From Holophagae bacterium (GTDB lineage: Bacteria; Acidobacteriota; Thermoanaerobaculia; Thermoanaerobaculales; Thermoanaerobaculaceae): a DNA stretch of 52,968 nucleotides. The position numbers and the translations under genes are program-made. The stretch spans positions 1-52,968 of the forward strand of contig JAAYVZ010000209.1 in NCBI GenBank assembly GCA_012516935.1, read 5' to 3'. Position 1 is the stretch's first letter, and each line of letters starts with the position of its first letter. Of this stretch, positions 7,934-29,605 are shown one piece after another. Below the pieces are notes generated by a model. The model saw only the letters and a list, made by a program, of their open reading frames with translations, did no database searches and was not told the origin of the DNA.

Positions 7934-9093
7934 GGCGGGCACGGGTGCTCCATGCCATCACCATGCTCGAGCTGGGGGGGGCGCAGCGCAACACGCTCGA
8001 CACCTGTGCCATGCTGGACCGGGGCCGGTTCGAGGTCGGTCTGGCCTGCGCCGATCGGGGAGAGCTGCTGGCCGAGGCGAGAGCGCTCGCGGACGTGCGG
8101 CGGTACGAGCTGCGGCACCTTCGGCGCGAGGTCAGACCGTGGCTCGACTTCGAAGCGTTCCGGGAGCTGCGCGCGGCGATCCGGGAGTTCGCGCCGGACC
8201 TCGTGCACACGCACTCGTCCAAGGCCGGCGTCCTCGGCCGCGCGGCGGCGCGGGCCGAGCGCGTACCAGTGATCGTCCACTCCATTCACGGCTGGGGTTT
8301 CGGCTCTCACCAGTCAGCGGCCGTACACGCCACATTCCTGGCCGCCGAACGGGTCGCGGCCCGCTGGACCTCGCACTTCGTCGCCGTCTCCCGAGCGAAC
8401 CTCGAGCAGGGGGTCGAGCTGGGGCTGTTCGGACGCGAGCAGGCGTCGGTCATCCGCTCCGGCATCGATCTCGAGGCGTTCCGATGTGCCAGCGGCGGCG
8501 AGCAGGTCCGCAGCGAGCTGGGGATCCCGGCCGGGGTGCCGCTCGTTGTCCAGGTCTCGTGCCTCAAGCCGCAGAAGGCCCCCGAGCGTTTCGTGGCGCT
8601 CGCCGCCGCCCTCGCCCCGCGCTTTCCCGACGCGCACTTCGTGCTGGTCGGCGACGGCGAGCTGCGGAGCAAGCTCGAGGTAGCGCGCGCCGCGGCGGGT
8701 CTCGAGGGACGGCTGCACCTGCCGGGGTGGCGTCGCGACGTGCCGGCGGTGCTGGACGCGGCAACGGTGGTGACGCTCACGTCCCGCTTCGAGGGGCTCC
8801 CGCGGGTGGTGGTCGAGGCGCTGGCAGCCCGCCGGGTGGTGGTTGCCATGGCCGTAGATGGGGTTCGTGAGGTGCTGCGCGACGGGATCAACGGGTACGC
8901 GGTGGCGCCCGGGGACGAGGCGGTGCTGGCCGAGCGGGTGGCGGAGCTGCTGACCGACCCCAGCCTCCGAGCACGACTGTCTGCGCCTGCCGACGAAGGC
9001 CTCGAGGCATGGGACCGCACCCTCATGGTGCGCCAGCAGGAGGAGCTTTACGCGCGGCTGCTCGCCGCTGCGGGCAGGGGAGGCAGGTCGTGA
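7930..9093 (+). CDS. Family 4 glycosyltransferase
   Basis: A GT-B fold glycosyltransferase of 387 residues. The N-terminal acceptor domain contains HAITMLELGGAQRNTLD and VHTHSSKAGVLGR. The C-terminal donor domain contains VVQVSCLKPQKAPERF, FVLVGDGELRSKLE and the EX7E-type segment SRFEGLPRVVVEALA. The start is GTG 7930, overlapping the previous stop (GTGA), with GAGGAGG seven bases upstream; the frame is open much further upstream but there it overlaps the flavoprotein gene. It likely extends the lipid-linked sugar chain begun by the WecA-like enzyme. Confidence 0.88.
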   Translation: MRRARVLHAITMLELGGAQRNTLDTCAMLDRGRFEVGLACADRGELLAEARALADVRRYELRHLRREVRPWLDFEAFRELRAAIREFAPDLVHTHSSKAGVLGRAAARAERVPVIVHSIHGWGFGSHQSAAVHATFLAAERVAARWTSHFVAVSRANLEQGVELGLFGREQASVIRSGIDLEAFRCASGGEQVRSELGIPAGVPLVVQVSCLKPQKAPERFVALAAALAPRFPDAHFVLVGDGELRSKLEVARAAAGLEGRLHLPGWRRDVPAVLDAATVVTLTSRFEGLPRVVVEALAARRVVVAMAVDGVREVLRDGINGYAVAPGDEAVLAERVAELLTDPSLRARLSAPADEGLEAWDRTLMVRQQEELYARLLAAAGRGGRS

Positions 9094-9893
9094 TACCTCC
9101 CGCCGTGGTGACCGCCATCGTTTTCGTCTACGGTCTGGTGCTCGGCAGCTTCCTCAACGTCGTGATCCACCGGCTGCCGCTCGAGATCTCGCTCTGGAAG
9201 CCTCGCTCGCGCTGCCCGGCGTGCGGAGCACTCGTTCGCTGGTTCGACAACCTGCCGCTGATCTCATTCTTGTGGCTCCGAGGTCGCTGCCGGAGCTGCC
9301 GGACGCCGATCTCGTGGCGCTACCCGGTGGTTGAGCTGGCAACCGGCACGCTGCTGGCGCTCGTGCACCACCGACTGGGCCTCACCCTGCCCGCTGCCGA
9401 GGCCGGTGTGCTCGTCCTTCTGCTCGTGCCGTTGGCGTTCATCGACCTCGACCACCACCTGCTGCCCGACGTCCTGACCCTACCGGGGATCGTCCTCGGG
9501 CTGGCCGGAGCGGCCGCCGAGGGCTGGCTGCTGCAACCTTCGGGGCACCGGCTCGTCCCGCTGGTTGACGCGACCATCGGTACGGTCCTGGGCGCCGCCA
9601 TCCCCGCGTTGGTCATCGTCGCCTACAGGTGGCTACGCGGGAAGGAGGGCATGGGCTGGGGCGATGTCAAGCTGCTGGCGATGCTGGGAGCGTTTTTGGG
9701 GTGGCGCGGCATGCTGATGTCCTTGATGCTGGGAGTGGTATCCGGGGCGATCGTGGGTCTGGCGCTGATCGCCGGTGGTCGCGGCAAAGCCGATACCGAG
9801 CTGCCGTTCGGGACGTTCCTCTGCGGTGCCGGCGTGGTGGTGCTGCTGTGGGCTCACCAGCTCGCCCGGCTCGTCTGGGGTTCGGGATCATGA
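9090..9893 (+). CDS. pilD: Prepilin peptidase / N-methyltransferase (PilD/GspO)
   Basis: A polytopic aspartic peptidase that cleaves and methylates type IV prepilins or type II secretion pseudopilins. Visible: the N-terminal membrane segment with VLGSFLNVVIHRLP, the zinc-binding CPAC...CRSC methylase loop, and the two catalytic aspartates in FIDLDHHLLPD and GMGWGDVKLLAMLG. Length (267 residues) is typical. Start GTG 9090 overlaps the GT4 stop, with GGGGAGG upstream. Its place inside a glycan/two-component operon, away from any visible pilin genes, is notable. Confidence 0.93.
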   Translation: MIPPAVVTAIVFVYGLVLGSFLNVVIHRLPLEISLWKPRSRCPACGALVRWFDNLPLISFLWLRGRCRSCRTPISWRYPVVELATGTLLALVHHRLGLTLPAAEAGVLVLLLVPLAFIDLDHHLLPDVLTLPGIVLGLAGAAAEGWLLQPSGHRLVPLVDATIGTVLGAAIPALVIVAYRWLRGKEGMGWGDVKLLAMLGAFLGWRGMLMSLMLGVVSGAIVGLALIAGGRGKADTELPFGTFLCGAGVVVLLWAHQLARLVWGSGS

Positions 9894-11536
9894 CCTCGGT
9901 CCTGCCGTCCCGCCGCTTCCGCGAGGCGCGGGTGCTGATCGGAGCGGCGCTGCTCATGCTGGTCGCGATGATCGCCGTCGAGATGGGCGGTGTCCTGGGG
10001 GTGGCGGGGCTGGTCGAAGAGGAGACCGGACGGGCGGCCTTGGTGGCAGCCCAGATGCTCGCTGCCAACGCCGCCCAGGTCGACGCGGCCCGCTACCACG
10101 CGGCGCTGCGGGCCGACGGGTGGGGGATGGTCGTGTTTCGCAACGGAACGGTGGACTGGTCGCTCGGCGAGTTCGGTCCCCTCCTCCCGGCGTGGTGGCC
10201 GTGGCACTCGCGCGAGCAGTGGGAAGCGGCCGGCGGCACCGTGGCGGGGCCGTTGGCGCTGGGGACCCGGCAGGTGATGGTGGCCTGTCAGCCCTTGGCC
10301 GGTGGCGGTGTTGCGCGGGTCGCCGTACCCGCCACGCGGGCCCGCACCGCCGGTCGCTGGCGCATGGCTGGGGCAGTGCTGGCGCTGGTGGTCGGCCTCG
10401 GTGGTGCGTTCCTGGCCTGGGTGCTGATCACCCGCGCCCTCGGGCCCTACCGGGAGCTGCTGGCCGAGGCGGTGCGGATCGCCCACGGCCCGGGCGAGGA
10501 GCCGGAGGACCGCTTCCTTGTCGGCACCTTCAAGGATGCGGTGCGGCGGCTCGAGGCCTCGGAGGCGGGCGCCCGTCAGCGTGTCGACGAGCTCGAGGTG
10601 CTCACCCAGGTACTCACCCGCGAGGCGTCGTTTGGGGTGGTAGTCACCGATATGCTCGACGTCGTGCAGGCGTACAACCCGCCAGCGCAGGCCCTGGCGG
10701 GTGACGAGCTGGCGGTCGGCCGGGGGCTGCCGGCGGCGCTGTGCTCGGATGGACGGTTGGCCCTCGGGGAGCGCGTCGTCGAGGTGCGACGCTTTCCGTT
10801 GCTCGCCTCGACCGGCGCCAGCCTCGGCCACGTTACCTTTCTCTCCGACCGCACGTCGCTCGAAGCTCTCGAGCGAACGCTCGCCGAACGCGAGCAGATG
10901 GCCCAGCTCGGTGAGCTCTCGGCTGGCATGGCCCACGAGCTGCGCAACGCGCTGGCGACGATCCGTGGCTATCTGCGGCTTCTTCCCGAAGCCGACGAGG
11001 AGCGCCGCGCACGCTTCGTCGCGGCGATGGAGCAGGAGGCCGGTGAGCTGGGTGGGCTGCTCGAGCGCTTTCTGCGCTTCGCACAGCCGCACGAGCTGCT
11101 CCGCCAGCGTTGTGACCTCGCCGAGCTCGTGACCGAAGCGGCCGCGCGCGTCGCGGCCTCCTCCCCCGCGGTGGTGCCGAAGCTGGCGCTCGCACCGTGC
11201 GAGGTCGTGGTGGATCGTATGGCGGTGGGAGTGATCGTCGAGAACCTCCTGCGCAACGCGGTGGAGGCGGTGGGCGGCACGGGCTCGGTGCGCGTGCTCA
11301 CGGCGGCGACCGGCGACTATGCGCGGGTCGTCGTGGAGGACGACGGTCCCGGGGTCAGCCCGCAAGTCGCCGACCGCTTGTTTCGTCCGTTCGTCTCGAC
11401 CAAGCCCTCCGGGGGGTTGGGGCTGGCAATGTCGCGCCGGCTGGCGCGGCTGCACGGCGGCGACGTGGTGTACGAGCCGTGCGAGGGGCACGGCGCGCGC
11501 TTCGTCCTGACGCTGCCGCTCGGAGATCCGGCATGA
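9890..11536 (+). CDS. Membrane sensor histidine kinase
   Basis: A 548-residue inner-membrane kinase: TM1 near residues 17-40, an extracytoplasmic region of roughly 120 residues, TM2 near 163-182 (LALVVGLGGAFLAWVLI), a HAMP-like linker, a PAS-like segment around 235-325, then HisKA with His349 in MAHELRNALATIRG, the N-box ENLLRNAVEAV, the G1 box VEDDGPGVSP and the G2 box GGLGLAMSRR. All catalytic features look intact. It overlaps pilD (ATGA) and the following response regulator (ATGA), so the two form a translationally coupled pair. The organisation resembles NtrB/ZraS-type partners of sigma-54 activators. The signal is unknown. Confidence 0.9.
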   Translation: MTSVLPSRRFREARVLIGAALLMLVAMIAVEMGGVLGVAGLVEEETGRAALVAAQMLAANAAQVDAARYHAALRADGWGMVVFRNGTVDWSLGEFGPLLPAWWPWHSREQWEAAGGTVAGPLALGTRQVMVACQPLAGGGVARVAVPATRARTAGRWRMAGAVLALVVGLGGAFLAWVLITRALGPYRELLAEAVRIAHGPGEEPEDRFLVGTFKDAVRRLEASEAGARQRVDELEVLTQVLTREASFGVVVTDMLDVVQAYNPPAQALAGDELAVGRGLPAALCSDGRLALGERVVEVRRFPLLASTGASLGHVTFLSDRTSLEALERTLAEREQMAQLGELSAGMAHELRNALATIRGYLRLLPEADEERRARFVAAMEQEAGELGGLLERFLRFAQPHELLRQRCDLAELVTEAAARVAASSPAVVPKLALAPCEVVVDRMAVGVIVENLLRNAVEAVGGTGSVRVLTAATGDYARVVVEDDGPGVSPQVADRLFRPFVSTKPSGGLGLAMSRRLARLHGGDVVYEPCEGHGARFVLTLPLGDPA

Positions 11537-12792
11537 GCGCGCCGGTGCTGGTGGTCGAGGACCGGCGCTCACTCGCCGAGATGTTCGCCGAGACGCTGCG
11601 CGCCGAGGGCTACGAGGTGGAGGTGGTGCTGCGCGGAGACGAGGCGGTGCGCCGCATCGGCGAGCCGACCCCGCTGCTGGCCGTAGTCACCGACCTCAAG
11701 CTGCCCGGAGCCGACGGCCTGGAGGTGCTACGCGCCGCGCGGGCAGCGGACCCGCAGACTCCCGTCTTCCTCATCACTGGCTTCGCCACCGTCCAGACCG
11801 CGGTCGAGGCGCTCAAGCTGGGCGCCCGAGACTACTTCACCAAGCCGCTCGACATGGGGCTCGTCCTCGCCGCCCTCCATGCCGCCACCGAACCCCGGCG
11901 CGCACTCCTCGCCGCCCTCCCGGTCGAGCATGGAATGCCCGTGCTGGTCGGAACGGCGCCGGTCTTCGTCGCTGCCGTGACGGCGCTACGGCGCGTCGCC
12001 CCGACCGATGCCGCGGTGCTGCTGCTCGGGCCGTCCGGGAGCGGCAAGGAGCTATTCGCACGCGCCGTGCACCACCTCTCGGCTCGCCGCAACGGCCCGT
12101 TCGTGGCGTTCAACTGCGCCGCTGTCCCCGAGACCCTGGTGGAGTCCGAGCTGTTCGGGTACGAGCGGGGGGCGTTTACGGGTGCCACCGCCCGGCACGT
12201 TGGCCGTTTCGAGCAGGCGCACGGGGGCACGCTGTTCCTCGACGAGGTAGGGGAGATCCCGTTGCCCACGCAGTCCAAGCTGCTGCGGGCCGTCGAGGAG
12301 CGGCGGATCACTCGTCTCGGCGGCGAGGCCGAGGTGGCGGTCGAGGTGCGCATCCTGGCCGCGACCAACCGCGACCTCGAGGCGAGCGTGGCCGCCGGCG
12401 ACTTCCGCCGCGACCTCTTCCACCGCCTGCACGTCTTCCCGATCCGGCTCCCAGCTTTGGAAGACCGACGGCAGGACATCCCGGCGCTCGTCCTCCATCT
12501 CGCAGCTCGGGCTGCCGAGCGGCTGCGGGTGAAGGTGCCGACGTTCACGCCTGCGGCCATGGCCGCCCTCGTCCTGGCGCCGTGGCCAGGTAACGTCAGA
12601 GAGCTCGCCAACGTTGTCGAGCGGGCGCTCATCCTGCTGAGCGGCGAGCACGTAGGGGTGAAGGATCTGGGGCTCGATCCGGCCGCCAGTCGAGCGGCGC
12701 TCGGCGATCCGGAGACGGCGGCCCTCGCTCTGCGGTTGGCCGGCAATCAGACGGAGGAGCTCGAGGCATTCTTGGGCGTGCCCTTCCCGTAG
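11533..12792 (+). CDS. Sigma-54 response regulator lacking a recognisable HTH
   Basis: An NtrC-family activator. Receiver domain at residues 4-120 with phospho-acceptor Asp54 (TDLKLPG). AAA+ sigma-54 interaction domain with Walker A GPSGSGKE, GAFTGA loop at 213-218, Walker B GTLFLDEVGEI and arginine finger region RRDLFHRL. The canonical Fis-type helix-turn-helix should follow, but the protein stops at 419 residues with ALRLAGNQTEELEAFLG and a short tail, which looks like a degenerate or truncated first helix only. No HTH continuation is visible in the other frames just downstream. It may activate sigma-54 RNA polymerase from solution, as FlgR-like proteins do. Coupled by ATGA overlap to the kinase. 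Confidence 0.9.
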   Translation: MSAPVLVVEDRRSLAEMFAETLRAEGYEVEVVLRGDEAVRRIGEPTPLLAVVTDLKLPGADGLEVLRAARAADPQTPVFLITGFATVQTAVEALKLGARDYFTKPLDMGLVLAALHAATEPRRALLAALPVEHGMPVLVGTAPVFVAAVTALRRVAPTDAAVLLLGPSGSGKELFARAVHHLSARRNGPFVAFNCAAVPETLVESELFGYERGAFTGATARHVGRFEQAHGGTLFLDEVGEIPLPTQSKLLRAVEERRITRLGGEAEVAVEVRILAATNRDLEASVAAGDFRRDLFHRLHVFPIRLPALEDRRQDIPALVLHLAARAAERLRVKVPTFTPAAMAALVLAPWPGNVRELANVVERALILLSGEHVGVKDLGLDPAASRAALGDPETAALALRLAGNQTEELEAFLGVPFP

Positions 12793-12892
12793 CGAGGACT
12801 GTCGACTCGTGACCGCAGCGCCGGCACGTCGACCGCCGCCGCCAACCACCCCACCTGCCGTCATGGTGTACCCTCGCGCGGGAGCCATCGCT

Positions 12893-14161
12893 ATGGACCA
12901 GGTCCGCGCACTGCTGAGTCAGGTTCCGCCAGAGGCGTTCCAGGTCCTGCTCGTCCTCGGGCTGTCGTTCCTCCTCGGCCTCGAACGGGGGGGAAGGAAA
13001 GCCCGGACCGGGCACTACATGTTCGGCGGCGTTCGGACGTTCCCGCTCATCGGTCTGCTTGGGTACGGCACGGCCCTCGTCTCGGGGACCGAGCTACTGC
13101 TCGTGGCGCTGGGGCTCGGGGCCGTGACTGCGTTCATGGTCGTGTCGTACCGCCACAAGCTGGAGACCGCGGAGGACGCCGGGGTTACCACCGAGATCAG
13201 TGGGCTGCTCACCTACGTGCTCGGCGCGCTGGTTCACTACACCCATTACTGGATCGCCACCACCATCGTCGTTCTGGCGCTGCTGTTGCTCGAGCTCAAG
13301 AGCGGGCTCGAGAACCTCTCCGACCGCATCCCGGCCGAAGAGGTCGAGACGTTCACCAAGTTCCTGCTGCTCACGGCGGTGATCCTCCCCGCCGTACCGA
13401 ACCAAGACCTCGGGCCGTTTCGCCTCAACCCGTTCAAGGCTTGGCTGGTGGTCGTAGCGGTGAGCGGCGTCTCGTACGGCGCGTACGTGCTGCAGCGGGT
13501 TACCCACAAACGCGGGGGGATCGTGCTGGCGGCTCTGCTCGGCGGGGCGTACTCATCCACCGTCATCACCGTGGTGCTTGCCCGCCGGGCGAAACACGAG
13601 GACCGGCCACACCTGTTTTCCGGCAGCATCCTGGCGGCGAGCGGGATGATGTTCCTACGCCTGGTGCTGCTGCTGGCGATTTTCTCCCAGCCGCTGTACG
13701 GCGCACTCGCGCTCAAGCTGCTCATCCTCGGGCTGGCGGCGACAGCGGCTGGGCTGTGGTGGACACACCGTCCCGACCCCAACCCCAGCGTGCCGGAACG
13801 GCAGTACCAGGCGAAGAACCCGCTCGAGCTGCGTTCCACCTTCGCCTTCGCCGGGATCTTCATCGCTTTGCTGGTCGTCACCACGCTCGTGCTGCGCCAC
13901 TTCGGGAGCCTCGGCATGTACGCCCTGGCCGTGCTCATGGGAGCCGTGAACGTGGACCCGTTCATCATGGGGCTGGCCCAGACCGCCGGCAGCTCGACGC
14001 CACTCGCCACCGCCGCCGCGGCGGTCCTCATCACGACCGCCGCCAACAACGTACTCAAGGGGGTCTACGCGTTCATCTTCGCCGACCGGCAGACGGGCGT
14101 GCAGGGGCTGGTCGCCCTCGTGCTGCTGGGTCTGGCTGGCCTCTCGCTCGTGTGGCTGTGA
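12893..14161 (+). CDS. MgtC/SapB-DUF4010 family membrane protein
   Basis: A 422-residue polytopic membrane protein. The N-terminal part has the MgtC/SapB signature LLGLERGGRKARTG...GVRTFPLIGLLGY; the C-terminal part is the DUF4010 module, rich in membrane helices and ending in a conserved-looking NVDPFIMGLAQTAG segment and ANNVLKGVYAFIF. About 12 hydrophobic helices. Function of the fused family is not established; MgtC proteins are linked to magnesium limitation and ion homeostasis. ATG 12893 was chosen because GGGAG lies about nine bases upstream and the first helix follows directly. Confidence 0.82.
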   Translation: MDQVRALLSQVPPEAFQVLLVLGLSFLLGLERGGRKARTGHYMFGGVRTFPLIGLLGYGTALVSGTELLLVALGLGAVTAFMVVSYRHKLETAEDAGVTTEISGLLTYVLGALVHYTHYWIATTIVVLALLLLELKSGLENLSDRIPAEEVETFTKFLLLTAVILPAVPNQDLGPFRLNPFKAWLVVVAVSGVSYGAYVLQRVTHKRGGIVLAALLGGAYSSTVITVVLARRAKHEDRPHLFSGSILAASGMMFLRLVLLLAIFSQPLYGALALKLLILGLAATAAGLWWTHRPDPNPSVPERQYQAKNPLELRSTFAFAGIFIALLVVTTLVLRHFGSLGMYALAVLMGAVNVDPFIMGLAQTAGSSTPLATAAAAVLITTAANNVLKGVYAFIFADRQTGVQGLVALVLLGLAGLSLVWL

Positions 14162-15122: not shown

Positions 15123-16478
15123 ATGCGACGGGCTCTCGTGCTCCTGCTACCGGTGGCGTTGCTCGCGCAAGGAGGAGGCGCGCCCAGAGTCTCCGACGAA
15201 GCCTATGGCACGCAGCCGTACGACCGCTACGAACGCCCTCAAGCCTGTGCGACCTGCCACGTGGACATTGCCCGCCAGCACGAGCAGGCGATGATGTCGC
15301 AGGCCTACACCCACCACTGGGACGAGATCGAGTACTTCGAGCTGGCGCTTCCACACGCCGCCAAGGAGCCGAAGGTGGCCGATGTCGAAGCCGGGTGCAA
15401 CGGCTGCCACGCGCCGCTCGCTTTGCTGGCCGGTGACATACCACCCAAACCACCGAAGGCGGGCACCCGAGCCAACGAGTCGGTGTCGTGCGACCTCTGC
15501 CATACGGTCACCGGTTTCGTCGGCGACGTCCCATACAACTTCAACTGGGTTACCCAACCCGGCAAGATCAAGCAGGGACCGCGTCCAGGCGTGGTCAGCC
15601 CGCACCACGAGACGAGGGAGAACTCGTTCCTGCGCTCGGCTGAGTTCTGCGGCACCTGTCATAACGAGAAGGACTCGTGGGGGTTGTTCGTCAAGTCGAC
15701 CCACCTCGAGTGGCTCGAGGGACCGCACAGCAAAGGCGGGGTCGTCTGCCAGGACTGCCATATGCCGCCGGCGCCCGGGCGCTCGGCGCGCATGGGCTCG
15801 GAGCTTTCCGACCTGCGGCAGCACCTGTTCCACGGCGCCCACGATCCCGGCAAGCTCAAAGGGGTGGCCGAGGTACGCATCCACCCGGAAAGCCGTGAGG
15901 CCGAGCCCGGGGACACCGTGAAGCTCACGGCGGTGGTGGTGAACGCCAAGGCCGGCCACAAGATCCCATCCGGCTCGGCCGAGGAGCGGGTGCTGTGGCT
16001 GCACGTCGAGGCCACCGACGCCAAGGGCCGCACCGTCCATCTCCCGGTGGACCGCACCGGGTTCGTTGACGAGGACCTCACCATCGCCAGCGATGTCCTC
16101 GCCTACCAGGACATCGGCGACATCAAGGGAATCGCCGACTTCCCGGGCCTCAAGCGGGACGGCACCTACGCAACCATGAAGCCTGGCGACCGCATCTTCC
16201 GGCTGCCGTACCTCGACCCCAAGGGCCGGATGACGATCGCGCAGTGGAACACCGCCGCGTTCGGGACCGACTACCGGCTGGCGCCGCTGGCGGCCCGAAC
16301 CGAGACCTTCACCTGGAAGCTACCGCAGGACACCCCGCCGGGACCGGTGACGGTCACCGCCACCGTGTACTACTCGCGCCTCGTCAGCTCGGTCGGCGAG
16401 TTCCTGCACGTTCCAGCCGAGGAGTGGGAGCCGGTGCAAATCGGCATCCATACCACCGTCTTCGAGGTGCTCGAGTGA
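15123..16478 (+). CDS. Pentahaem c-type cytochrome
   Basis: A 451-residue exported protein with a short signal peptide (RRALVLLLPVALLAQ) and five CxxCH haem-binding motifs at Cys42, Cys92, Cys123, Cys176 and Cys209. All five haems are therefore in the N-terminal half, as in the cytochrome c554/multihaem family. The C-terminal 230 residues are cysteine-free and beta-rich (AEVRIHPESREAEPGDTVKL, TVTATVYYSR), perhaps an immunoglobulin-like domain. GGGGG lies about eight bases before ATG 15123. It is followed after 10 bases by a haem-bearing porin. A role in moving electrons across the periplasm to the outer membrane is inferred. Confidence 0.87.
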   Translation: MRRALVLLLPVALLAQGGGAPRVSDEAYGTQPYDRYERPQACATCHVDIARQHEQAMMSQAYTHHWDEIEYFELALPHAAKEPKVADVEAGCNGCHAPLALLAGDIPPKPPKAGTRANESVSCDLCHTVTGFVGDVPYNFNWVTQPGKIKQGPRPGVVSPHHETRENSFLRSAEFCGTCHNEKDSWGLFVKSTHLEWLEGPHSKGGVVCQDCHMPPAPGRSARMGSELSDLRQHLFHGAHDPGKLKGVAEVRIHPESREAEPGDTVKLTAVVVNAKAGHKIPSGSAEERVLWLHVEATDAKGRTVHLPVDRTGFVDEDLTIASDVLAYQDIGDIKGIADFPGLKRDGTYATMKPGDRIFRLPYLDPKGRMTIAQWNTAAFGTDYRLAPLAARTETFTWKLPQDTPPGPVTVTATVYYSRLVSSVGEFLHVPAEEWEPVQIGIHTTVFEVLE

Positions 16479-16488
16479 GGAGGGGAGC

Positions 16489-17673
16489 ATGCGCCGCAAC
16501 CGCCTGATCGTTGCTTCCGTGCTGGCCGCCATCGGCCTGTGGGGCCTGCTGGCCGCCTCCAGCGCCGACGCCATTCCGGCGTTCGCACGCAAATACCAAC
16601 TCTCGTGCTCGACCTGCCACGCGCCGTTCCCACGTCTCAAGCCGTACGGCGATGAGTTTGCGGGGCGAGGCTTCAGGATGGAGGACCCCACGAAGGAGCC
16701 GGCCCGGGCCACCTACGATGTCGGCGACCCGCTGCTCAAGCTCTTCCGTGAGCTGCCGCTCGCGGTGCGAATGGACTTGTACGGCCTTTGGCAGGAGAAG
16801 GAGGAGGTCAAGACCGACTTCCAGACACCGTGGGTATTCAAGGCGCTCTCGGGAGGGCAGATACACGACCATGTCTCGTACTACGTGTACGGGGTCCTCG
16901 AGGAGGGCAAGTCGGTCAAGATCGAGGACGCGTTCGTTCAGTTCTCGAACCTCTTCGGGGCTCCGGTGGACCTCATCGTCGGCCAGTTCCAAGTCTGCGA
17001 CCCGATGTTCAAACGCGAGGCGCGACTCGAGCACGAGGACTACCAGATCTTCAAGACCAAGGTGGGCTCAAGCCCGACCAACCTCGCGTACGACCGCGGG
17101 GCGCTCCTGGAATGGGGAGCGCCGGGCGGCCTCGACGTGGTGCTCCAGGTGGTCAACGGCAACGGGATTGCGGCCGCCAAGGACGAGACGTTCGACGACA
17201 ACAGCTTCAAGAACTTGAGCCTGCGGCTGGCGCGCCAGGTCGGTCCGGTGAGGGTCGGTGTCTTCGGTTACCGAGGCACGACGGCTGGGCAGCACGGCAA
17301 CAACGTCACGACCTACCTCGGCCCAGACCTGGTTGCTGACCTCGGTGACCGGTTCCAGCTCAACCTCCAGTACCTCCAGCGCAAGGACGACAAGCCGTTC
17401 CTCGGCCAGGGACCCGAGCGCGACGTGACGACCCGTGGCGGGTTCGCCGAGCTGCTGTTCTTCCCCCGCGGCCAGGATGGGCGGTGGGCGTTGTCGCTGC
17501 TGTACAACAACGTGGAGACCGACTTCCGGACCCTGCCCGATACCCGGTACGAAACCGTCGCGCTCACCCTCAACCGCCTGCTGGCGCGCAACCTGCGCCT
17601 GCTGGCGGAGGCCGTGCGCGACCTCGAGCACGACCGGACCAGGCTCACGTTGGGGGTCATCGCGGCTTTCTGA
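16489..17673 (+). CDS. Cyc2-like fused monohaem cytochrome-porin
   Basis: A 394-residue protein. A signal peptide ends near ASSADA. One CxxCH motif follows at Cys40-His44, in the setting AIPAFARKYQLSC then HAPFPRLKPYGDEF, closely resembling the haem segment of Cyc2 outer-membrane cytochrome-porins (FAR..., CxxCH, FPxL...G). The rest alternates hydrophobic and polar residues in beta-strands typical of a 14-18 strand barrel and ends in aromatic/hydrophobic Ala-Phe. A family of such single-haem porins exists beyond iron oxidisers, so iron oxidation is only one possibility. It starts 10 bases after the pentahaem gene (GGGGAGC upstream), so the two are probably co-transcribed. Confidence 0.75.
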   Translation: MRRNRLIVASVLAAIGLWGLLAASSADAIPAFARKYQLSCSTCHAPFPRLKPYGDEFAGRGFRMEDPTKEPARATYDVGDPLLKLFRELPLAVRMDLYGLWQEKEEVKTDFQTPWVFKALSGGQIHDHVSYYVYGVLEEGKSVKIEDAFVQFSNLFGAPVDLIVGQFQVCDPMFKREARLEHEDYQIFKTKVGSSPTNLAYDRGALLEWGAPGGLDVVLQVVNGNGIAAAKDETFDDNSFKNLSLRLARQVGPVRVGVFGYRGTTAGQHGNNVTTYLGPDLVADLGDRFQLNLQYLQRKDDKPFLGQGPERDVTTRGGFAELLFFPRGQDGRWALSLLYNNVETDFRTLPDTRYETVALTLNRLLARNLRLLAEAVRDLEHDRTRLTLGVIAAF

Positions 17674-17687
17674 GCTATGCTCGTGTC

Positions 17688-18638
17688 ATGATCTCCCGGA
17701 GGCGCCGCTTCGGCTCAGCGGCGGCGCTGGCTCTGATCGCCGCCGCCCACCCCCTCCGTGCTCAGCAGGAGCACCCGATCCAGAGCGCAGCAGCAGTGGT
17801 CTCGCCAGCGCCGTGGATCGATCGCGTCTACGATCGCATCACGCGGTTCTTCAACGCCCGGGTGCGAGCGATGGACTCCTACTTCGCCCAGCACGAGCCG
17901 GTCGACGCCGAGCAGGAGTCACAGCTTCGGGTGCGTCTTTGGCTGCAGCACGAGGACTCCGAGCTTGACTTCAAGCCGGTGGTGTCCACCAACTTACAGA
18001 TGCCGAATCTCGAGCGGAGGCTTGACCTTTACGTCGAGAACATCACCCAGAACCTGCTGCCCGGCAGCGATCCCGTGGAGTCGGACACCCGGTTGCGGGT
18101 GGGTGCACGCGGTGACTTGTTTCGAGGCGGGCGCTGGGCAGTCACACGCGATCTGGGCGTCGGCTTCTCCCACGGCGTCAAGCTCTACGCCCAGGTCACC
18201 GGTCACTTCCGGTGGTACTGGCGACACTGGGAGGGGGTAGCCAGCCAGTCGCTGTTCTGGAACCGTGATGACGACCTCGGCGGGCTATCCCGGATAGTGC
18301 TCGACCGCAAGCTCGCCCCGAGCCTGTATCTACGCCTGCAGTCGGCAGCCAAGTACACGCAGGAACGGGAGTACTGGCGCACCTCGCAGGTCGTCAAGGT
18401 GGCGTGGGTGATGGAGGAGCAGCGCCACTACCTGCTGGCCTCGGCAGCCGTGTTCGGCAAGAATCGCATCGTCGACGAGTACCGCTCCGAGCTCACCTAC
18501 CGCACCCGGATGTGGCGTCCGTGGATCTACGCTGAGCTCACGCCCTACCTGAGCTTCAGACGGGAGAAGGACTTCGAGTCGAGCCCGGGGGTGCGCGTCG
18601 GGCTCGATCTCTTTTTCGGCGGCACCCCTCGTCTTTAG
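17688..18638 (+). CDS. Outer-membrane beta-barrel protein, unknown
   Basis: A 316-residue exported protein. The signal peptide ends near PLRAQQ; a helical segment (WIDRVYDRITRFFNARVRAMDSYF) is followed by repeated amphipathic beta-strands and a C-terminal strand VGLDLFFGG typical of outer-membrane barrels. No cysteine and no CxxCH motif. Third gene of the cytochrome cluster, 14 bases after the haem-porin. It may be a structural partner or a separate porin; the family was not recognised. Confidence 0.6.
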   Translation: MISRRRRFGSAAALALIAAAHPLRAQQEHPIQSAAAVVSPAPWIDRVYDRITRFFNARVRAMDSYFAQHEPVDAEQESQLRVRLWLQHEDSELDFKPVVSTNLQMPNLERRLDLYVENITQNLLPGSDPVESDTRLRVGARGDLFRGGRWAVTRDLGVGFSHGVKLYAQVTGHFRWYWRHWEGVASQSLFWNRDDDLGGLSRIVLDRKLAPSLYLRLQSAAKYTQEREYWRTSQVVKVAWVMEEQRHYLLASAAVFGKNRIVDEYRSELTYRTRMWRPWIYAELTPYLSFRREKDFESSPGVRVGLDLFFGGTPRL

Positions 18639-18954: not shown

Positions 18955-20160
18955 ATGACAGAGGAAACCCACAGCCGTCCCGACCTGGCAAGCCCAGAGC
19001 TGGAGGCCGAGGCTGCCGCCTTCTTCGAGGATCTGCATCACGCCCAGGCAGAAGGCAAGCGGGAGGTGGAGCGCGCGCTCGGTGGCGCGCGGTTCGGCCT
19101 CGTCTTGCCTCCCCTCGGCGAGGGTGACCGCGGCATGGTGTACCGGTTGCGGTCATGGTCCATGACGTTGCCGCATGCGCATGGGGCGTTGTGCTTGAAA
19201 GTCGCCAAGCAGCAGCCGGTATGCCGCGAGCGGTTACTCGAGGAGCAGATGACGACGTCGTTTTTTCTGGGCGAGGGGATCGTCGTACCGCGTATTCACT
19301 ACATGGACTCGTTGGGCCGGTTCGCCCTCAAGGACCTCATCGAGGGCGAGTCGGTGACCAGCTTGTACCTGCGGTTCGCCAGCCTCACGGCCCGCACCCA
19401 GAGCTTGGTCTTGGAAGGGCTCGAGCACTTCCTTACCCGGCTGCTCGAGCTGTTTCGCAAACGCCCGGACTGTCAGGTCTCGATCAGCCCCAACAACATC
19501 TACGTGCTGACCGAGGCCGGCCGCTTCTCCGACCCCCTCCAGCTCGTGCTCATCGACCCCGGAACGACGCTCAAGAAAAGTTACGAAGGGTTCACCTTCC
19601 AGAAGTACTGGAACGAAGTGCTGCCCGACCGGGTTCGCAAGTACCAGCGCACCGGATACCTCCAATGGTTGGTGCCGAAGGAGGTGACACAGTCCGAGCG
19701 CGACGAGGCGAAGGGCTTCGAGATCTTCCGGGACCTCAAACCGTCGGAGGTGTTCCTGCTCCTCAAGGTGGCGCGCACCATCGAGTACGATGCCGAGGAG
19801 GTCATCTTCTCCGAGGGCTCGATCGGGGAGAACTTCTATCTCGTGCTGGAAGGCGAGGTGGAGCTGCGGCGCGGCCATTTCTCCCGCTCCGGCCAGTTCG
19901 GGGTGCGCATCAAGCCCGGGTCGGTGTTGGGTGAGATGGGCTTTTTGCTGCACGCTCCGCGCTCGATGACTGCCGTGGCTGCCACGCCCTGCAAGCTCAT
20001 CGAGGTCGACCGCGAGCGCTTCAACGAGCTCATGGAAGCGAACCTCACCGCTCCCTACAAGCTCATCCGCAACATTGCCATCACCCTGGCCGAGCGTCTG
20101 CACGCGCTCGACAGCTCCCACGCCCGCCTACTGGAGGAGCGCGCCACCGGCGCGTACTAG
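18955..20160 (+). CDS. Kinase-fold protein fused to cyclic-nucleotide-binding domain
   Basis: A 401-residue cytoplasmic protein. Residues 50-235 look like a protein-kinase/APH-type fold: Gly-rich loop LGEGDRGMVY, Lys82 (CLKVAK), a catalytic-loop-like QVSISPNNIYV and a DFG-like Asp201 in LIDPG. The catalytic-loop Asp is replaced by Ser176, while the metal-binding Asn181 and Asp201 remain, so phosphotransfer by the standard mechanism is doubtful. Residues 262-384 form a cNMP-binding (Crp-type) domain with LGEMGFLLHAPRSMTA as phosphate-binding cassette, keeping Glu and Arg. The next gene is a clear paralogue of the kinase part. Function unknown; a ligand-gated regulator is plausible. Confidence 0.75.
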   Translation: MTEETHSRPDLASPELEAEAAAFFEDLHHAQAEGKREVERALGGARFGLVLPPLGEGDRGMVYRLRSWSMTLPHAHGALCLKVAKQQPVCRERLLEEQMTTSFFLGEGIVVPRIHYMDSLGRFALKDLIEGESVTSLYLRFASLTARTQSLVLEGLEHFLTRLLELFRKRPDCQVSISPNNIYVLTEAGRFSDPLQLVLIDPGTTLKKSYEGFTFQKYWNEVLPDRVRKYQRTGYLQWLVPKEVTQSERDEAKGFEIFRDLKPSEVFLLLKVARTIEYDAEEVIFSEGSIGENFYLVLEGEVELRRGHFSRSGQFGVRIKPGSVLGEMGFLLHAPRSMTAVAATPCKLIEVDRERFNELMEANLTAPYKLIRNIAITLAERLHALDSSHARLLEERATGAY

Positions 20161-20168
20161 GGGGTCTC

Positions 20169-21140
20169 GTGGTCAAGGAGACGACACGGCTTTACGAGAT
20201 CTGCCCTCGCTGCGAGGGCGCGATCCTCAAACGCGTGGAGGTGCCCTACGAGATCGCGGTGGCGGGCTCGCCGGTGCGCATCCCCAAGGTCCAGGTGGAG
20301 GAGTGCCGCAACTGTGGGTTCCGGTCGCTCTCGGGCAAGGAGGTGCGGCTTTTCGAGGTGCTGTTCGCCCCCCAGTACGCTCACGTCATCGACCTCGTGC
20401 AGGCGCTCAAAGCAGCCGGCTTTTTCGGCATGTTCCTGCGCGAGCATCGCAGTGAGTCGTGCCTGGGCTTCGGCTCCCGCGACTACGTGGCGGGGCTCGG
20501 GGCGGACCTCCAGAACCTGTATCTCGACAACGAGTCGAGCCATGTCATCGAAGGGCTCGACGAAGCCGTGGGCAGCGTGCCGATCGAGATCGCCGATCAC
20601 CGCTACACGGTGAAGCTCCCCAAGATCGGCGAGGGCGAGAACGGTATCGTCTACGACTACGAGGAGAGCCAGCGAGCGGTGCTGAAGATCGCCAAGCCGC
20701 GCGCTTACAGCCGCGACCACATTCGACAGGAGTGCGAGCTGACCAGCTTCTTCGCCAGCCACGGCGTGCCCGTGCCGGGGATCGAGGAGTATGACCCGTA
20801 CGGCAGCTTCGTGGTCAAGCAGCGGCTCGCCGGGCTCTCGCTGGCCCGGATCTATGACGATCTCGGTTCGCCGACCCAAGCTCGCCACCTGCTCGCCAAG
20901 CTGGCCGTTCGTGCCTTCATCGACCAGCTCCTCGAGCTTTTCGTACGGCACCCCGACGCCAAAACCTCGGTGAGCCCCAACAACATCTTCGTCATCGAAG
21001 ACGGAGACCGCTGCGAGTGCCTGCTGGTCGACACCGGCCCCGCACCGTTCCACGACTACTCGTCGTTCGACTTCGAGGAGTATTGGAACGTCACCATCCC
21101 CAAGAAAATCGAGCAGTACCGCTCGGTCGGCTACCTGTAG
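20169..21140 (+). CDS. Zinc-ribbon kinase-fold protein, paralogue of preceding gene
   Basis: A 323-residue protein. The N-terminus carries two CxxC pairs (Cys12/15 and Cys46/49) like the YgiT/MqsA-type zinc finger. Residues 145-323 repeat the kinase-like fold of the upstream product: IGEGENGIVY, Lys173 (VLKIAK), KTSVSPNNIFV and Asp288 (VDTG), ending in FEEYWNVTIPKKIEQYRSVGYL, which aligns with FQKYWNEVLPDRVRKYQRTGYL upstream. Again the catalytic Asp is Ser (Ser267). GTG start with GGGGG upstream, eight bases after the previous stop. The shared SxSPNN motif suggests a conserved, possibly non-canonical nucleotide site. Confidence 0.72.
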   Translation: MVKETTRLYEICPRCEGAILKRVEVPYEIAVAGSPVRIPKVQVEECRNCGFRSLSGKEVRLFEVLFAPQYAHVIDLVQALKAAGFFGMFLREHRSESCLGFGSRDYVAGLGADLQNLYLDNESSHVIEGLDEAVGSVPIEIADHRYTVKLPKIGEGENGIVYDYEESQRAVLKIAKPRAYSRDHIRQECELTSFFASHGVPVPGIEEYDPYGSFVVKQRLAGLSLARIYDDLGSPTQARHLLAKLAVRAFIDQLLELFVRHPDAKTSVSPNNIFVIEDGDRCECLLVDTGPAPFHDYSSFDFEEYWNVTIPKKIEQYRSVGYL

Positions 21141-21415: not shown

Positions 21416-24400
21416 ATGCGCGATCTCGGCCCGGCGTTGGGTGGCGTTCCGGTTCCTTCCGGCTCGGTCGGGACGGCGCCGCCACCGAGCGAGACAGCCG
21501 GGCTGGCCACCGTGCCCACCAGGCCCGCCGACCTCGAACGGCTCGCGGGCTGGCGGGCGAGGCTTCGGCAGACGGCTGGCATCGGGGCCGGGCGGACGAT
21601 CGCCCTTACCGGCGCCCGCCTGCGAATCGGCCGCGCCACCGGCAGCGACATCACCATCGACGACGGCAGCATCTCCCGAACCCATGCGGAGATCCGCTTC
21701 GAGAACCGCTGCTGGCTCGTCGAGGACCTGCGCTCGGCCAACGGAGTGCGGATCGACGGCAGCCCGGTGCAAACCGCCCCACTCGCACCTGGCTGCACGC
21801 TGACCCTCGGGAACGTCCAGCTCGTCCTGGAGCAGCCCGTCCCCGAGGTGCCGCTGCCGGAGCGCTTGTCGCTGCTCGCCGGGAGCGAGCTTTTGGCCAA
21901 CCTCGACGAGCATGCCCGGCACGAGATAGCCATTGGTCTCGAGGGGCGGTTCTTCCCCGAGGGTGCGGTGATCGCGAGGGCCGATGCGCCTGGCGAGGTC
22001 ATGCTGTTCGTCGTCGCCGGCAGCGTGCGCGTCGTCGAGGTCAACGACGAGGGCGGGGAGCAGGTGATCGAGCACCTGGGCCCGGGCGGCTGGTTCGGCG
22101 ACCGTCTGCTCGTCGCGGGCGGTGCGTACGGACACACGCTGGTCGCTGACACGGACGTGTGCGTGCTCGAGCTCGCCAAGTCCAAGCTCCAGATGCTGCG
22201 GCACACCCGCCCCGAGGTCGATCAGACCATTGTCCTCAACGCCCGCGAGAGGCTGCGCACCGCCCAGAGCAAGGCACCGGACAGGGTCCAGCGGCACGAC
22301 GGGGTCGAGCACTTCGCCGTGGCGACGGCAGTGGAGATCATCGGCGAAGACCTCGAGATCCGGCAGGCGCGGACACAGGTCGAGGAAGCCGCCAGGGCGG
22401 GTGCCCACCTGCTGATCATCGGCGAGCGCGGGGTGGGGAAGAAGACGTTCGCCCGCTACTACCACCACATCAGCACCGGCGCCAGGCAGCCTTATGTCGA
22501 GATCTCGCTGGCCGAGGTGGCGCCAGCGGCGGTGGAAGCCACACTGTTCGGCGTCGAGGCGGACCCCGCGAACCCTCAGGAGGAGGGCCAGACCGGGTTG
22601 CTCGAGACCATCGGGGACGGCACTCTCGCCATCGTTCACGCCGAGCGGCTCGATATCCACCAGCAACGCCTGCTCCTCACCTATCTCACGCACGGCTGGT
22701 ATTGGCGTCAGCACGGGCGGCAAGCCCATCAGGGCCAGACGCGCCTCGTGCTGGTCGCCACCGGCAGCGAGGCGGAGGTCATGGGGCGGCTGATCCCCGA
22801 CCTGTGGGAGGCTCTTGCCGGACGCCGGGTCGTCGTTCCACCGCTGACCCAGCGCCTCAGAGACATCCCTCTACTTGCAAAACACTTCCTTGGACTGGAC
22901 GCGAAGCAAAGCGGGCGCAGGGCACGGCTGCTCTCGCGCGAGGCGGAAGACCGACTGGTGTCATATGGCTGGCCCGGCAACCTGCGCGAGCTCGAAAACG
23001 TGATGCAACGTGCCGCCATCGTGGCGAGCGAGGACACCATCGTCGCCCCCGACCTGATTTTCGTGGCCCCGCCCGAGAAGGAGGTCCACAAGCTCAACCT
23101 CCTGCGCAACGAAAAGCTGCGCACGTTCCTGCGCCGATCGAGGCTGCTGACCGTGCTCACCTGGGTCAACATCGCCCTCGTGGGTCTGGTGACGGCCCTG
23201 ACCCTGTACGGCGCGACGCGGCCACCTGGACATCCGCTGCGGGAAGCGGGAAGCAACCCGGGGATGCTCGTAACCTGGTCCATCTGGGCGGTTTTTCTAC
23301 CGCTGGTGAGCGTGCTGGTGGGGCGGATCTGGTGCGGAATCTGCCCGATCGCCGGTATCGGCGAGTTCGTGGCCGGTCTCAAACGCTACAACCTGCCAGC
23401 ACCGAGCTTCTTGAAGAGAATCGACTTCTGGGGGCTGGTGATCGCTTTCGTGGTGGTCGACCTCATCGAGAGCTTCGTCGAGATCGACGTCAGCCCGTTG
23501 TCCACCGGGATCTTCCTGCTGGTGGTGCTCTACCTTGCAATCGCCTTCACCGTGCTGTTCGAGCGGCGGGCGTTCTGCCGCTATCTCTGCCCGCTCGCCG
23601 GCTGGCTCGGTGCCTACTCGACCATCGCGCCGATCGAGATTCGCGGCAACAAGAAAGTGTGTCAGACACAGTGTGGCGAGCATACCTGCTACACGGGCAC
23701 CGAGACCGTGGAAGGTTGCCCCATGTTCCTCTACCCGGCGTCGATGACCAGCAACGCCGAGTGCCTGCTGTGTACCAAGTGCGTACAGGCCTGCGCACAC
23801 AAGGGCGTGCAGCTCAACCTCCGGCCCCCGCTCTCCGAGCTCTGGCGCAACTCGCAGCCGCTCCTGGCGCTCTCGGTGTTCTCGGTGATGCTCGTCGGCA
23901 TCATGGGGTTCCACCAGCTCGAGGGGCTGGCCTGGTTCAAGCCGCTCAAGACCGGCTTTTTCGCCTCGTCGGCGGTCGCCAATCCGGTCCTCATGGGAAG
24001 CTTCATCATCCTCTGCCTGCTGGGGTTCGCTCTCGCGGCCACGCTCTCGGCCGCCGCCTCGCAGGAGCGCGTCCGCGACAACCTCGCCGCGTACGGGATC
24101 GGCTTCGTACCGCTGGCGTTCGCGGGCCACGCCGCCCATCTCCTGGAGGGTTTCCTCGACCACGGTCTGTACGAGCTCCTCGGCTACGCGAGAAAGCTAT
24201 GGGACTCGGTGATCAACGGGATGCCCATGACGGGACGCGAGGGGCTGGTGGAGCCGTTCGTCAACCCGGCGGTCATCACCTTCCTGAAGTTCCTCGTCGT
24301 CTCGGGTGGCATCACCGGGAGCGCCGTGGCGCTCGTCATGATCGCTCGCCGCGCCGGGGAGCGGAACGCTTTCGCCCGCGCCTTGCCCCATCTGCTGCTG

Positions 24401-24454
24401 CTGGCGGGGCTGGCGATCACGTACTACGTGATCTTCCTCGGCACCCAGAGCTGA
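21416..24454 (+). CDS. FHA + cNMP-binding + degenerate sigma-54-type AAA+ + NapH/NosR-like Fe-S membrane protein
   Basis: A 1012-residue fusion. FHA domain (about 60-135) with GRATGSD, SISRTHAEI and SANGVRIDG. Crp-like cNMP-binding domain (about 160-275). AAA+ domain related to sigma-54 activators (about 310-560) keeps Walker A GERGVGKKT (336-344) and the C-terminal SYGWPGNLRELENV, but the Walker B acids are lost (GTLAIVHAERLD), the GAFTGA loop is replaced by GVEADPANPQEEG and the arginine finger is missing. From about 580 there are some nine membrane helices carrying CGICP (Cys640, Cys643), CRYLCP (Cys721, Cys725), a further four-Cys cluster and a ferredoxin motif with Cys783, 786, 789 and 793, as in NapH/NosR/RdxA electron-transfer proteins. 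GGGGAG precedes ATG 21416. Probably membrane electron transfer under sensory control; function unproven. Confidence 0.88.
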   Translation: MRDLGPALGGVPVPSGSVGTAPPPSETAGLATVPTRPADLERLAGWRARLRQTAGIGAGRTIALTGARLRIGRATGSDITIDDGSISRTHAEIRFENRCWLVEDLRSANGVRIDGSPVQTAPLAPGCTLTLGNVQLVLEQPVPEVPLPERLSLLAGSELLANLDEHARHEIAIGLEGRFFPEGAVIARADAPGEVMLFVVAGSVRVVEVNDEGGEQVIEHLGPGGWFGDRLLVAGGAYGHTLVADTDVCVLELAKSKLQMLRHTRPEVDQTIVLNARERLRTAQSKAPDRVQRHDGVEHFAVATAVEIIGEDLEIRQARTQVEEAARAGAHLLIIGERGVGKKTFARYYHHISTGARQPYVEISLAEVAPAAVEATLFGVEADPANPQEEGQTGLLETIGDGTLAIVHAERLDIHQQRLLLTYLTHGWYWRQHGRQAHQGQTRLVLVATGSEAEVMGRLIPDLWEALAGRRVVVPPLTQRLRDIPLLAKHFLGLDAKQSGRRARLLSREAEDRLVSYGWPGNLRELENVMQRAAIVASEDTIVAPDLIFVAPPEKEVHKLNLLRNEKLRTFLRRSRLLTVLTWVNIALVGLVTALTLYGATRPPGHPLREAGSNPGMLVTWSIWAVFLPLVSVLVGRIWCGICPIAGIGEFVAGLKRYNLPAPSFLKRIDFWGLVIAFVVVDLIESFVEIDVSPLSTGIFLLVVLYLAIAFTVLFERRAFCRYLCPLAGWLGAYSTIAPIEIRGNKKVCQTQCGEHTCYTGTETVEGCPMFLYPASMTSNAECLLCTKCVQACAHKGVQLNLRPPLSELWRNSQPLLALSVFSVMLVGIMGFHQLEGLAWFKPLKTGFFASSAVANPVLMGSFIILCLLGFALAATLSAAASQERVRDNLAAYGIGFVPLAFAGHAAHLLEGFLDHGLYELLGYARKLWDSVINGMPMTGREGLVEPFVNPAVITFLKFLVVSGGITGSAVALVMIARRAGERNAFARALPHLLLLAGLAITYYVIFLGTQS

Positions 24455-28225: not shown

Positions 28226-29605
28226 ATGACGCAACGCATCACCACTCACTGGGAGTGTCAGCCCGAGGCCGAACAGCTCGTGCACGGCTGGTGGAGGGAA
28301 GCCCTCGATGCCGCGCCTCCACTTGGACAGGTGGAGACGGCGGCCCGCCGGCTCGCCGACTGCCGGCTCGTTGATCTCGTCGACCACCTCGTGGTGGCCG
28401 AAGGCGGTGAGGTCCGCGCCCAGTTGGCAGCGGTCGGCTTCGTCGCCACCGAGGATGCGGTGAGCGAGGGAGACACGCCGTTCCGCCACCTCGCAAGCGT
28501 CCTCCCGCCGATCCTGTTGCGGTCCGGGAACGCGGCCGCCGGACGGGTGCTCGGCGTCGGCCTGAAGGGCGACTCCGCCGCCGACCTTCTGGCCGTTTGG
28601 GGCGTCGACGCACCGATTGCCGGCTCGCCGCTGTCGCCGCTCCGCACCGCCCGGGTCTGGAGCGGCCAGGGTTGGGCCGTCGATGCCGTCGAGCGCCGAG
28701 GGTGGACCGGCTTCGTTCCAGTGGAGCAGCAACCATCCCAGAGCGAGGCGGTGCTGGCGGCCTCGGAGCGTTGGGCAGTGCGGCCGAGGCACGGTGCCGA
28801 CGTGGCCGGTGCGATGGCCGCCACCCTCGATTTGGCCCGCTGGCTGGTCGACGAGCTCGGACAGGACCGGGCGGCGTGGGCCGCCTTCGCGGTGGAGCGC
28901 GCCCACTGGGCACGGCACAACCGTGCCGCGAGAGTGCAGAAGGAGCGTCAGGATCTGGTGGGGTTCGGGTGGGCCAACCATGACCACCATACGTTCCGAA
29001 GCTCGCGCGAGCACTTCCCCGTCCTCATCGAGATCCTCGAGACCCTGGGGTTCGTGCCACGCGAGCGGTTTTACGCCGGTGCAGAGGCGGGTTGGGGAGC
29101 GCAGGTCATGCAGCAGCCAGCCTGCGACCTGGCGGTGTTCGCCGACGTCGACCTTTCTCCGGACGAGGTGGAGGGCGACTTCGCCCATCGCGGCCTGCCT
29201 CCGCGACCCCGGCTCGGTACCATCGGGCTATGGTGCGCGCTGCACGGCGAGTCGATGCTGGGCGCGGGGCTCCACCACCTGGCAGCGCGGCTGGCGTTCG
29301 ATGACGCTGTCGCCGGGTTGGGCCGGGCCGGCGTGGCGACCATGCCACCGTTCTCGAGCTTCCCCTACCTGCGCCAAGCGTTCACCGAAGGTGAGCGCTG
29401 GCCCGTAGCGGGCGAGCGGCTGGAGCGCCTGCGCACCGGCGGCACGGTTGACGAGGCCGCGATCGCGCGCTTCGCTGACCAGGGCGCGATCGGCAGCCAC
29501 CTCGAGAACATCGAGCGCAACCAGGGGTTCGGCGGGTTCAACCAGGAACGCATCTCCGACATCATCCGCCGCACCGATCCGCGCCTGTCCACGGCACGAG
29601 GGTGA
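28226..29605 (+). CDS. Uncharacterised protein with possible VOC/DUF1338-like centre
   Basis: A 459-residue soluble protein of no family I can name with confidence. No signal peptide and no membrane helix. The central part NHDHHTFRSSREHFPVLIEI then LETLGFVPRERFYAG is reminiscent of the metal-binding His and the following helix in DUF1338/vicinal-oxygen-chelate enzymes, where an (N/D)H-x-x-(F/I)R motif carries an Fe ligand; this is a weak analogy. The C-terminus is helical with ENIERNQGFGGFNQERISDI. ATG 28226 has GAGGGGGAAG upstream; an earlier in-frame ATG at 28187 lacks one. Monocistronic between the transporter cluster and the RelA/SpoT gene. Confidence 0.6.
   Translation: MTQRITTHWECQPEAEQLVHGWWREALDAAPPLGQVETAARRLADCRLVDLVDHLVVAEGGEVRAQLAAVGFVATEDAVSEGDTPFRHLASVLPPILLRSGNAAAGRVLGVGLKGDSAADLLAVWGVDAPIAGSPLSPLRTARVWSGQGWAVDAVERRGWTGFVPVEQQPSQSEAVLAASERWAVRPRHGADVAGAMAATLDLARWLVDELGQDRAAWAAFAVERAHWARHNRAARVQKERQDLVGFGWANHDHHTFRSSREHFPVLIEILETLGFVPRERFYAGAEAGWGAQVMQQPACDLAVFADVDLSPDEVEGDFAHRGLPPRPRLGTIGLWCALHGESMLGAGLHHLAARLAFDDAVAGLGRAGVATMPPFSSFPYLRQAFTEGERWPVAGERLERLRTGGTVDEAAIARFADQGAIGSHLENIERNQGFGGFNQERISDIIRRTDPRLSTARG

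Follow-up and report, generated by a model that had tools for sequence, protein, structure and literature searches.

The contig analysed here encodes a protein that joins an FHA domain, a CNB-fold domain, and an NtrC-type AAA+ domain to a polyferredoxin membrane module. Our leading explanation, to which we give a little less than an even chance, is that the protein may be a phosphothreonine switch that acts through a hydrolysis-dead AAA+ domain to control a NapH-like Fe-S electron-transfer protein. That this fusion turns up in several bacterial groups, each time close to genes for kinases or kinase-like proteins at most loci, suggests that phosphorylation could control a membrane electron relay. 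The gene (21416..24454, an exact ORF with an ATG start, encoding 1012 residues) lies on the forward strand, as do all features given below, of a Holophagae bacterium sequence referred to as the window, which is the whole stretch of 52,968 nucleotides that was analysed and one whole contig of a 3.7 Mb draft genome (98% complete, 293 contigs).

The four-part architecture that the initial annotation had read from the letters alone is real and is contained in a single ORF. A Pfam search of the translation returned FHA (residues 70-132, 1.3e-15), cNMP_binding (178-261, 2.2e-16), Sigma54_activat (308-451, 7.6e-20, with a lid at 479-547), and two matches to Fer4_5. The AlphaFold model of the protein had a mean pLDDT of 83, and its soluble domains were superposed on known chains with VIA-align. 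The FHA domain (residues 43-142, 21542..21841) superposed on GarA (7rj3_C, Z 18.8, 1.4 A over 100 residues), the CNB-fold domain (residues 145-287, 21848..22276) on MlotiK1 (1u12_B, Z 18.9, 1.5 A over 127), and the AAA+ domain with its lid (residues 307-550, 22334..23065) on NtrC1 (1ny5_B, Z 26.8, 2.6 A over 244). Fold searches with the whole protein likewise returned AAA+, CNB, and FHA chains, and a profile search found no solved structure for the membrane part. The junction between the AAA lid and the first membrane helix (residues 549-576, 23060..23143) carries a highly conserved FVxxxxKxxHxLNLL sequence and leads into the polyferredoxin module (23144..24451), which was delineated by Pfam, hydrophobicity, and AlphaFold. 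From residue 577 onward, hydrophobicity and predicted helices give about nine membrane helices with positive-inside loops, in agreement with the nine proposed at the outset.

A sequencing error near residue 570, which the initial annotation had named as a possible source of the fusion, is refuted by full-length orthologues and by the conservation of the junction. Orthologues that carry the soluble and membrane parts in one full-length protein were found at 44-77% identity in the same genus, family, and class and in assemblies of Acidobacteriota and Desulfobacterota/Deltaproteobacteria. We refer to relatives with the FHA-CNB-AAA-polyferredoxin architecture, found partly by a membrane-module scan of GTDB genomes, as group A. 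Residues 549-563 of the junction are among the most conserved stretches of the protein. Two fragments of the same-genus copy (L047 and L048) overlap exactly and therefore represent one gene. Against this copy, the dN/dS ratio, calculated from the printed dN and dS values, was ∼0.33 for the N-terminal half and ∼0.23 for the C-terminal half, and the ratio for the neighboring gene described below as partner 1 was 0.13. A viral origin was rejected, as neither the full protein nor the membrane-module alignment retrieved a relative from viral_contigs. A role in anti-phage defence was also rejected, as PADLOC matched just generic AAA (RtcR-type) and CNB stretches.

The residues of the soluble head indicate which of its activities may have been retained. 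The phosphothreonine-reading residues R73, S87, H90, and N109 of the FHA domain are present in the window protein and kept in every group A copy that covers the domain. The FHA Arg is lost in a second set of relatives, group B, which probably gained FHA independently; both observations count in favor of the preferred explanation. The label of cNMP-binding given to the second domain was correct with respect to its fold, but the sequence does not support cNMP sensing. The FGE or FGD sequence is mostly present, and the phosphate-binding Arg is missing in all group A copies, so that cyclic-nucleotide binding by the CNB of the fusion is doubtful.

The AAA+ domain had been described as keeping Walker A and losing the Walker B acids, the GAFTGA motif, and the arginine finger, and the alignment bears this out. 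Walker A (GERGVGKK at residues 336-343, or GERGVGKKT at 336-344, 22421..22447) is retained, and of the group A rows covering the motif just one is without its Lys. In the degenerate Walker B (residues 400-410, 22613..22645), Asp is replaced by V407 and the catalytic Glu by H408, and His stands at this latter position in all group A rows covering the site. No aligned AAA-bearing member has the Walker B acids or GAFTGA, none of those sampled has the arginine finger, and the sensor II Arg is not conserved. Because the Walker B acids and GAFTGA are gone and the Walker A Lys is mostly kept, ATP hydrolysis is very unlikely and nucleotide binding possible. Relative to the NtrC-type sigma-54 activators (bEBPs), the protein shares the AAA+ fold and Walker A but is without Walker B, GAFTGA, the arginine finger, and the HTH, and its C-terminus is a membrane protein. 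It therefore cannot be a sigma-54 activator and, much as first proposed, would be at most a nucleotide-binding switch.

The tail that precedes the FHA domain (21416..21541) contains a recurring Thr motif. The first ∼40 residues were predicted by AlphaFold with very low confidence (pLDDT about 30), which is consistent with disorder, and they include T32 within ATVP in the window and ATLV, ATVA, or ATRL in orthologues. The pattern T[LVR][VAMLIP] occurs in 13 of 13 group A tails as compared to a shuffled mean of 3.1, a count in which the motif was picked post hoc and the rows are related. The tail Thr is placed like the phosphothreonine of GarA/OdhI, and OdhI is phosphorylated at Thr14 in its N-terminal tail (PMC2784874). 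The fusion thus resembles GarA/OdhI in pairing FHA with a phosphorylatable, here candidate, Thr of the N-terminal tail; however, GarA and OdhI are small soluble enzyme regulators and their tail motif differs. We regard the Thr motif as a candidate phosphorylation site and as a lead, not a test.

The paired NapH/NosR-type motifs near the membrane helices are present in the membrane module as CxxCP (C640/C643, 23333..23347) and CxxxCP (C721/C725, 23576..23593). They are followed by a ferredoxin-like loop (23660..23794) with two four-Cys sets, the atypically spaced C749/C753/C758/C768, accompanied by H756, and C783/C786/C789/C793. All twelve Cys and the one His are invariant across groups A and B, which again favors the preferred explanation. 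The loop probably holds two [4Fe-4S] sites and is predicted by the positive-inside rule to be on the cytoplasmic side. CX3CP motifs are common to NapH, NosR, and RdhC, and both the delivery of electrons to nitrate reductase and the activity of NosZ depend on the NapH/NosR module that bears them (PMC5928378). For this reason we assign a putative electron-transfer role to the membrane module, which may be a NapH-like protein that binds Fe-S clusters. The fusion is like NapH/MauN and NosR in having membrane helices with paired C-x2/3-CP motifs and then two four-Cys [4Fe-4S]-type sets, but it lacks an FMN domain, has additional helices beyond the Fe-S loop, and carries an atypical C-x3-C-x4-C-x9-C set with a conserved His and a large cytoplasmic signalling head. 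The NapH model was absent among the best 25 of the 36 models matching the window protein, and outgroup relatives of the module matched the NCBIfam NapH model weakly, at 21-44 bits, below its cut-off of 213.

No conserved redox-partner or electron-accepting gene was seen in the neighborhoods of the fusion that were examined, which counts against the preferred explanation. The window does contain a three-gene cluster (15123-18638) that could be an outer-membrane electron conduit and consists of a multiheme c-type cytochrome (five CxxCH, weak ExtKL match), a 394-residue protein that has a single CxxCH close to the N-terminus, and a 316-residue protein, the latter two without any match in Pfam. 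This cluster was rejected as the electron partner, as it does not adjoin the cassette in other genomes. A 459-residue protein with no Pfam match is encoded at 28226-29605.

Directly upstream of the fusion are two kinase-like genes. Partner 1 (18955..20160) combines a kinase-like domain with a C-terminal CNB, and partner 2 (20169..21140) combines an N-terminal, zinc-ribbon-like CxxC...CxxC segment with a kinase-like domain; the two are about 33% identical over the kinase-like part. The Gly-rich loop, Lys, Glu, and the Asn and Asp that bind Mg are retained in both partners (Lys82, Glu97, Asn181, and Asp201 in partner 1; Asn272 and Asp288 in partner 2). The catalytic Asp of HxDxxxxN is Ser in 12 of 12 partner sequences (Ser176 and Ser267 in the window), a loss that counts against the preferred explanation. 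The kinase assignment of partner 1 is based on these motifs, on the predicted strand/helix order, and on the APH match of partner 2 (Pfam, 3.8e-4), as fold searches returned CNB chains; a partner 2 profile had no match in the PDB. The CNB of partner 1 has a canonical phosphate-binding motif, GEMxFLLxxPRSMT, Arg included.

Six Acidobacterial genomes carry partner 1, partner 2, and the fusion in collinear order. In a set of 60 relatives, partner 1 is present in all six with a group A fusion and in none of the 54 without, a co-occurrence that is inflated by shared ancestry but has a patchy distribution within the family. In one genome (G001), partner 1 is on another contig and still co-occurs with the fusion. 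The window genome also encodes at least twenty Hanks kinases along with a single class III nucleotide cyclase. On contig C75 of genome G000 (69575-71122), an FHA-like stretch and a class III nucleotide cyclase lie near each other on one strand; they may belong to a single FHA-cyclase protein, which could supply the CNB partner. In genome G003, an MFS transporter with a C-terminal FHA domain (L045, 13652-15310) is encoded directly upstream of the cassette and is a second membrane protein with the same type of reader; related upstream MFS genes (L044, 13597-14907; L050, 7199-8443) are shorter and without FHA.

In Desulfobacterota, the gene next to the fusion usually encodes an intact Hanks Ser/Thr kinase. 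Hanks kinases with intact HRD and DFG motifs are encoded directly downstream of the fusion and on the same strand at five loci (L064, L065, L068, L069, and L070). At L068, for example, the fusion gene spans 8291-11497, with its tail Thr in DESEATVAF, and the kinase gene spans 11538-13268. PP2C genes are near the fusion at L064 and L072, as are GGDEF and FHA-GAF-HisKA genes at L064. A paralogue (L046) and the Desulfobacterota locus L071 have no kinase next door, which is a point against the preferred explanation. The nearest functional precedent is Rv1747 of Mycobacterium tuberculosis, an FHA-bearing membrane transporter that is positively modulated by its operon kinase PknF (PMC3908365; PMC5549992). 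The likeness is that of an FHA membrane protein beside a kinase gene, with an adjacent Ser/Thr kinase in the Desulfobacterota orthologues, whereas the window has kinase-like genes without the catalytic Asp, and Rv1747 is an ABC transporter without an NtrC-type AAA+ domain or Fe-S module.

Profile searches that covered 396 genomes of the window's phylum and another 395 from the phylum to which the Desulfobacterota genome G425 belongs placed the fusion in a wider family. The membrane module occurs as a stand-alone protein of about 450-500 residues; fused to COX2/cupredoxin, CtaG, heavy-metal-binding, or cytochrome c domains; and joined to AAA+ together with CNB, GAF, or the pair of FHA and CNB. 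In a tree built by a quick search with SH-aLRT support only, the AAA-bearing members form one clade (support 96) that includes three stand-alone proteins; the position of these polyferredoxins (L134, L136, and L138) suggests loss of the regulatory head. FHA is found in two separate clades, A (support 100) and B (support 99), and thus the simplest reading is that FHA was gained twice on a CNB-AAA-polyferredoxin background. The domains at the N-terminus differ between members (FHA plus CNB, CNB, or GAF), and the core of dead AAA+ and membrane module stays constant. Such an arrangement would be expected if different inputs feed a single output, and it favors the preferred explanation.

Two GAF-AAA-polyferredoxins from the phylum of G425 (L123 and L127) have open frames of about 1200 residues with extra N-terminal sequence. 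Cyanobacterial plasmid relatives are annotated just as "cyclic nucleotide-binding domain-containing protein" or "nitrogen assimilation regulatory protein". Two of these, from Pseudanabaena and Aulosira plasmids (L185, 4869-7562; L186, 4734-7448), are immediately upstream of a cysteine synthase gene, and one is also near glutaredoxin, DsrE, and rhodanese genes, which hints at thiol or sulfur redox. No conserved partner was seen beside the cNMP-AAA group in the neighborhoods examined. Elsewhere, a Caa3_CtaG oxidase-assembly domain is fused to the polyferredoxin module (L093, 631-2961), and a second protein (L094, 436-2919) resembles it by its N-terminus and tree position.

Based on the module order, conservation, residue states, and partner linkage described above, we infer phosphorylation, signalling direction, an electron path, and oligomerisation as follows. 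The fusion protein would be the membrane end of a Ser/Thr-phosphorylation pathway. A kinase, which could be the neighboring Hanks kinase in Desulfobacterota or, in the window genome, one of its twenty or more Hanks kinases, would phosphorylate a Thr in the disordered tail or on a partner protein, and the two co-inherited kinase-like proteins are probably adaptors. The FHA domain would then bind the phosphothreonine, either in cis, as GarA/OdhI do, or in trans, with the FHA domain serving as a dock. Its occupancy may be relayed via the CNB-fold domain to the AAA+ domain, which, probably binding ATP without hydrolysis, would act as an assembly or conformational switch. In this manner the soluble head would gate the membrane part, setting the C-terminal NapH-like module on or off; electron transfer by this module would connect the Fe-S clusters on the cytoplasmic side with either the quinone pool or a partner in the periplasm. 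With slightly less assurance than for the window protein, we propose that the members form an undescribed family of membrane electron relays that are gated by signals: a hydrolysis-dead NtrC-type AAA+ domain would couple exchangeable cytoplasmic sensors (FHA, CNB, and GAF) to a transmembrane polyferredoxin, and phosphorylation would directly set the flow of electrons across or into the membrane.

The main rival reverses the direction of signalling, with the membrane Fe-S module sensing the redox state of the quinone pool or cytoplasm and the AAA-CNB-FHA head serving as an output that recruits phosphorylated partners or a kinase. Fe-S and quinone modules can serve as redox sensors. The adjacent kinases and kinase-like proteins could be receivers, the variable sensor domains could be outputs or docking sites, and no electron-accepting partner enzyme is conserved nearby. 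However, NtrC-type proteins receive their input through the N-terminal domain, and the exchange of sensory domains at the N-terminus of an unchanged core is usual for inputs. We consider this reversal unlikely, though it is the most serious competitor.

Less probable again is that the protein is a regulated metal (copper) reductase or cofactor-maturation protein of the CcoG/NosR kind, the activity of which is adjusted by the head. CcoG (RdxA/FixG), a cupric reductase, is a membrane polyferredoxin to which the fusion may be comparable. In outgroup relatives, the module is joined to domains of the COX2/cupredoxin, CtaG, or heavy-metal-binding type, and several of these proteins end in a Met/His-rich tail of the form QPMxxRHxH or similar (QPMAARHHH, QPMSMRHVH, QPMSARHQH, QPMEMRGMGM, and QPMVMRMG among L173, L174, L175, L178, and L184), suggesting a periplasmic metal site in these outgroup proteins. 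Group A, in contrast, has neither the Met/His tail nor a metal-binding fusion, and no copper genes were recognised beside the group A fusion. A membrane-tethered transcription regulator of the VpsR/FleQ kind with sigma-54 contact lost is very improbable; the AAA+ domain is of the NtrC type and the structural matches include VpsR, but no DNA-binding domain was found, membrane helices occupy the HTH position, and the domain has lost Walker B, GAFTGA, and its arginine finger. Finally, although the genome is a draft, the joining of two genes by assembly or sequencing error has a negligible chance given the identical fusion in many independent assemblies of two phyla, the conserved junction, and purifying selection.

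Each module of the phosphothreonine switch proposed here is known, as is an FHA membrane protein beside its kinase, but the combination and the family were not found described in the literature searched, which was mostly outside subscription journals, and the family members found in databases carried generic names. The initial annotation had known of no described mechanism of this kind and had called this its best candidate for an undescribed system. No description was found in the present searches either, but the architecture is not unique, as the protein is one branch of a wider family; this, the kinase-like partners, the Hanks kinases beside orthologues, and the tail motif had been missed.

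Control of respiratory electron transfer in bacteria is commonly ascribed to gene expression and substrate supply. A phosphothreonine reader joined to a membrane Fe-S module would, if the explanation is true, amount to a post-translational switch on electron flow, and it would provide a job for some of the many Ser/Thr kinases that in Acidobacteriota and sulfate reducers still lack an assigned target. Across the family, an NtrC-type AAA+ domain appears to have been recruited away from transcription. The adjacent kinase and fusion genes in Desulfobacterota make this reading directly testable in vitro.
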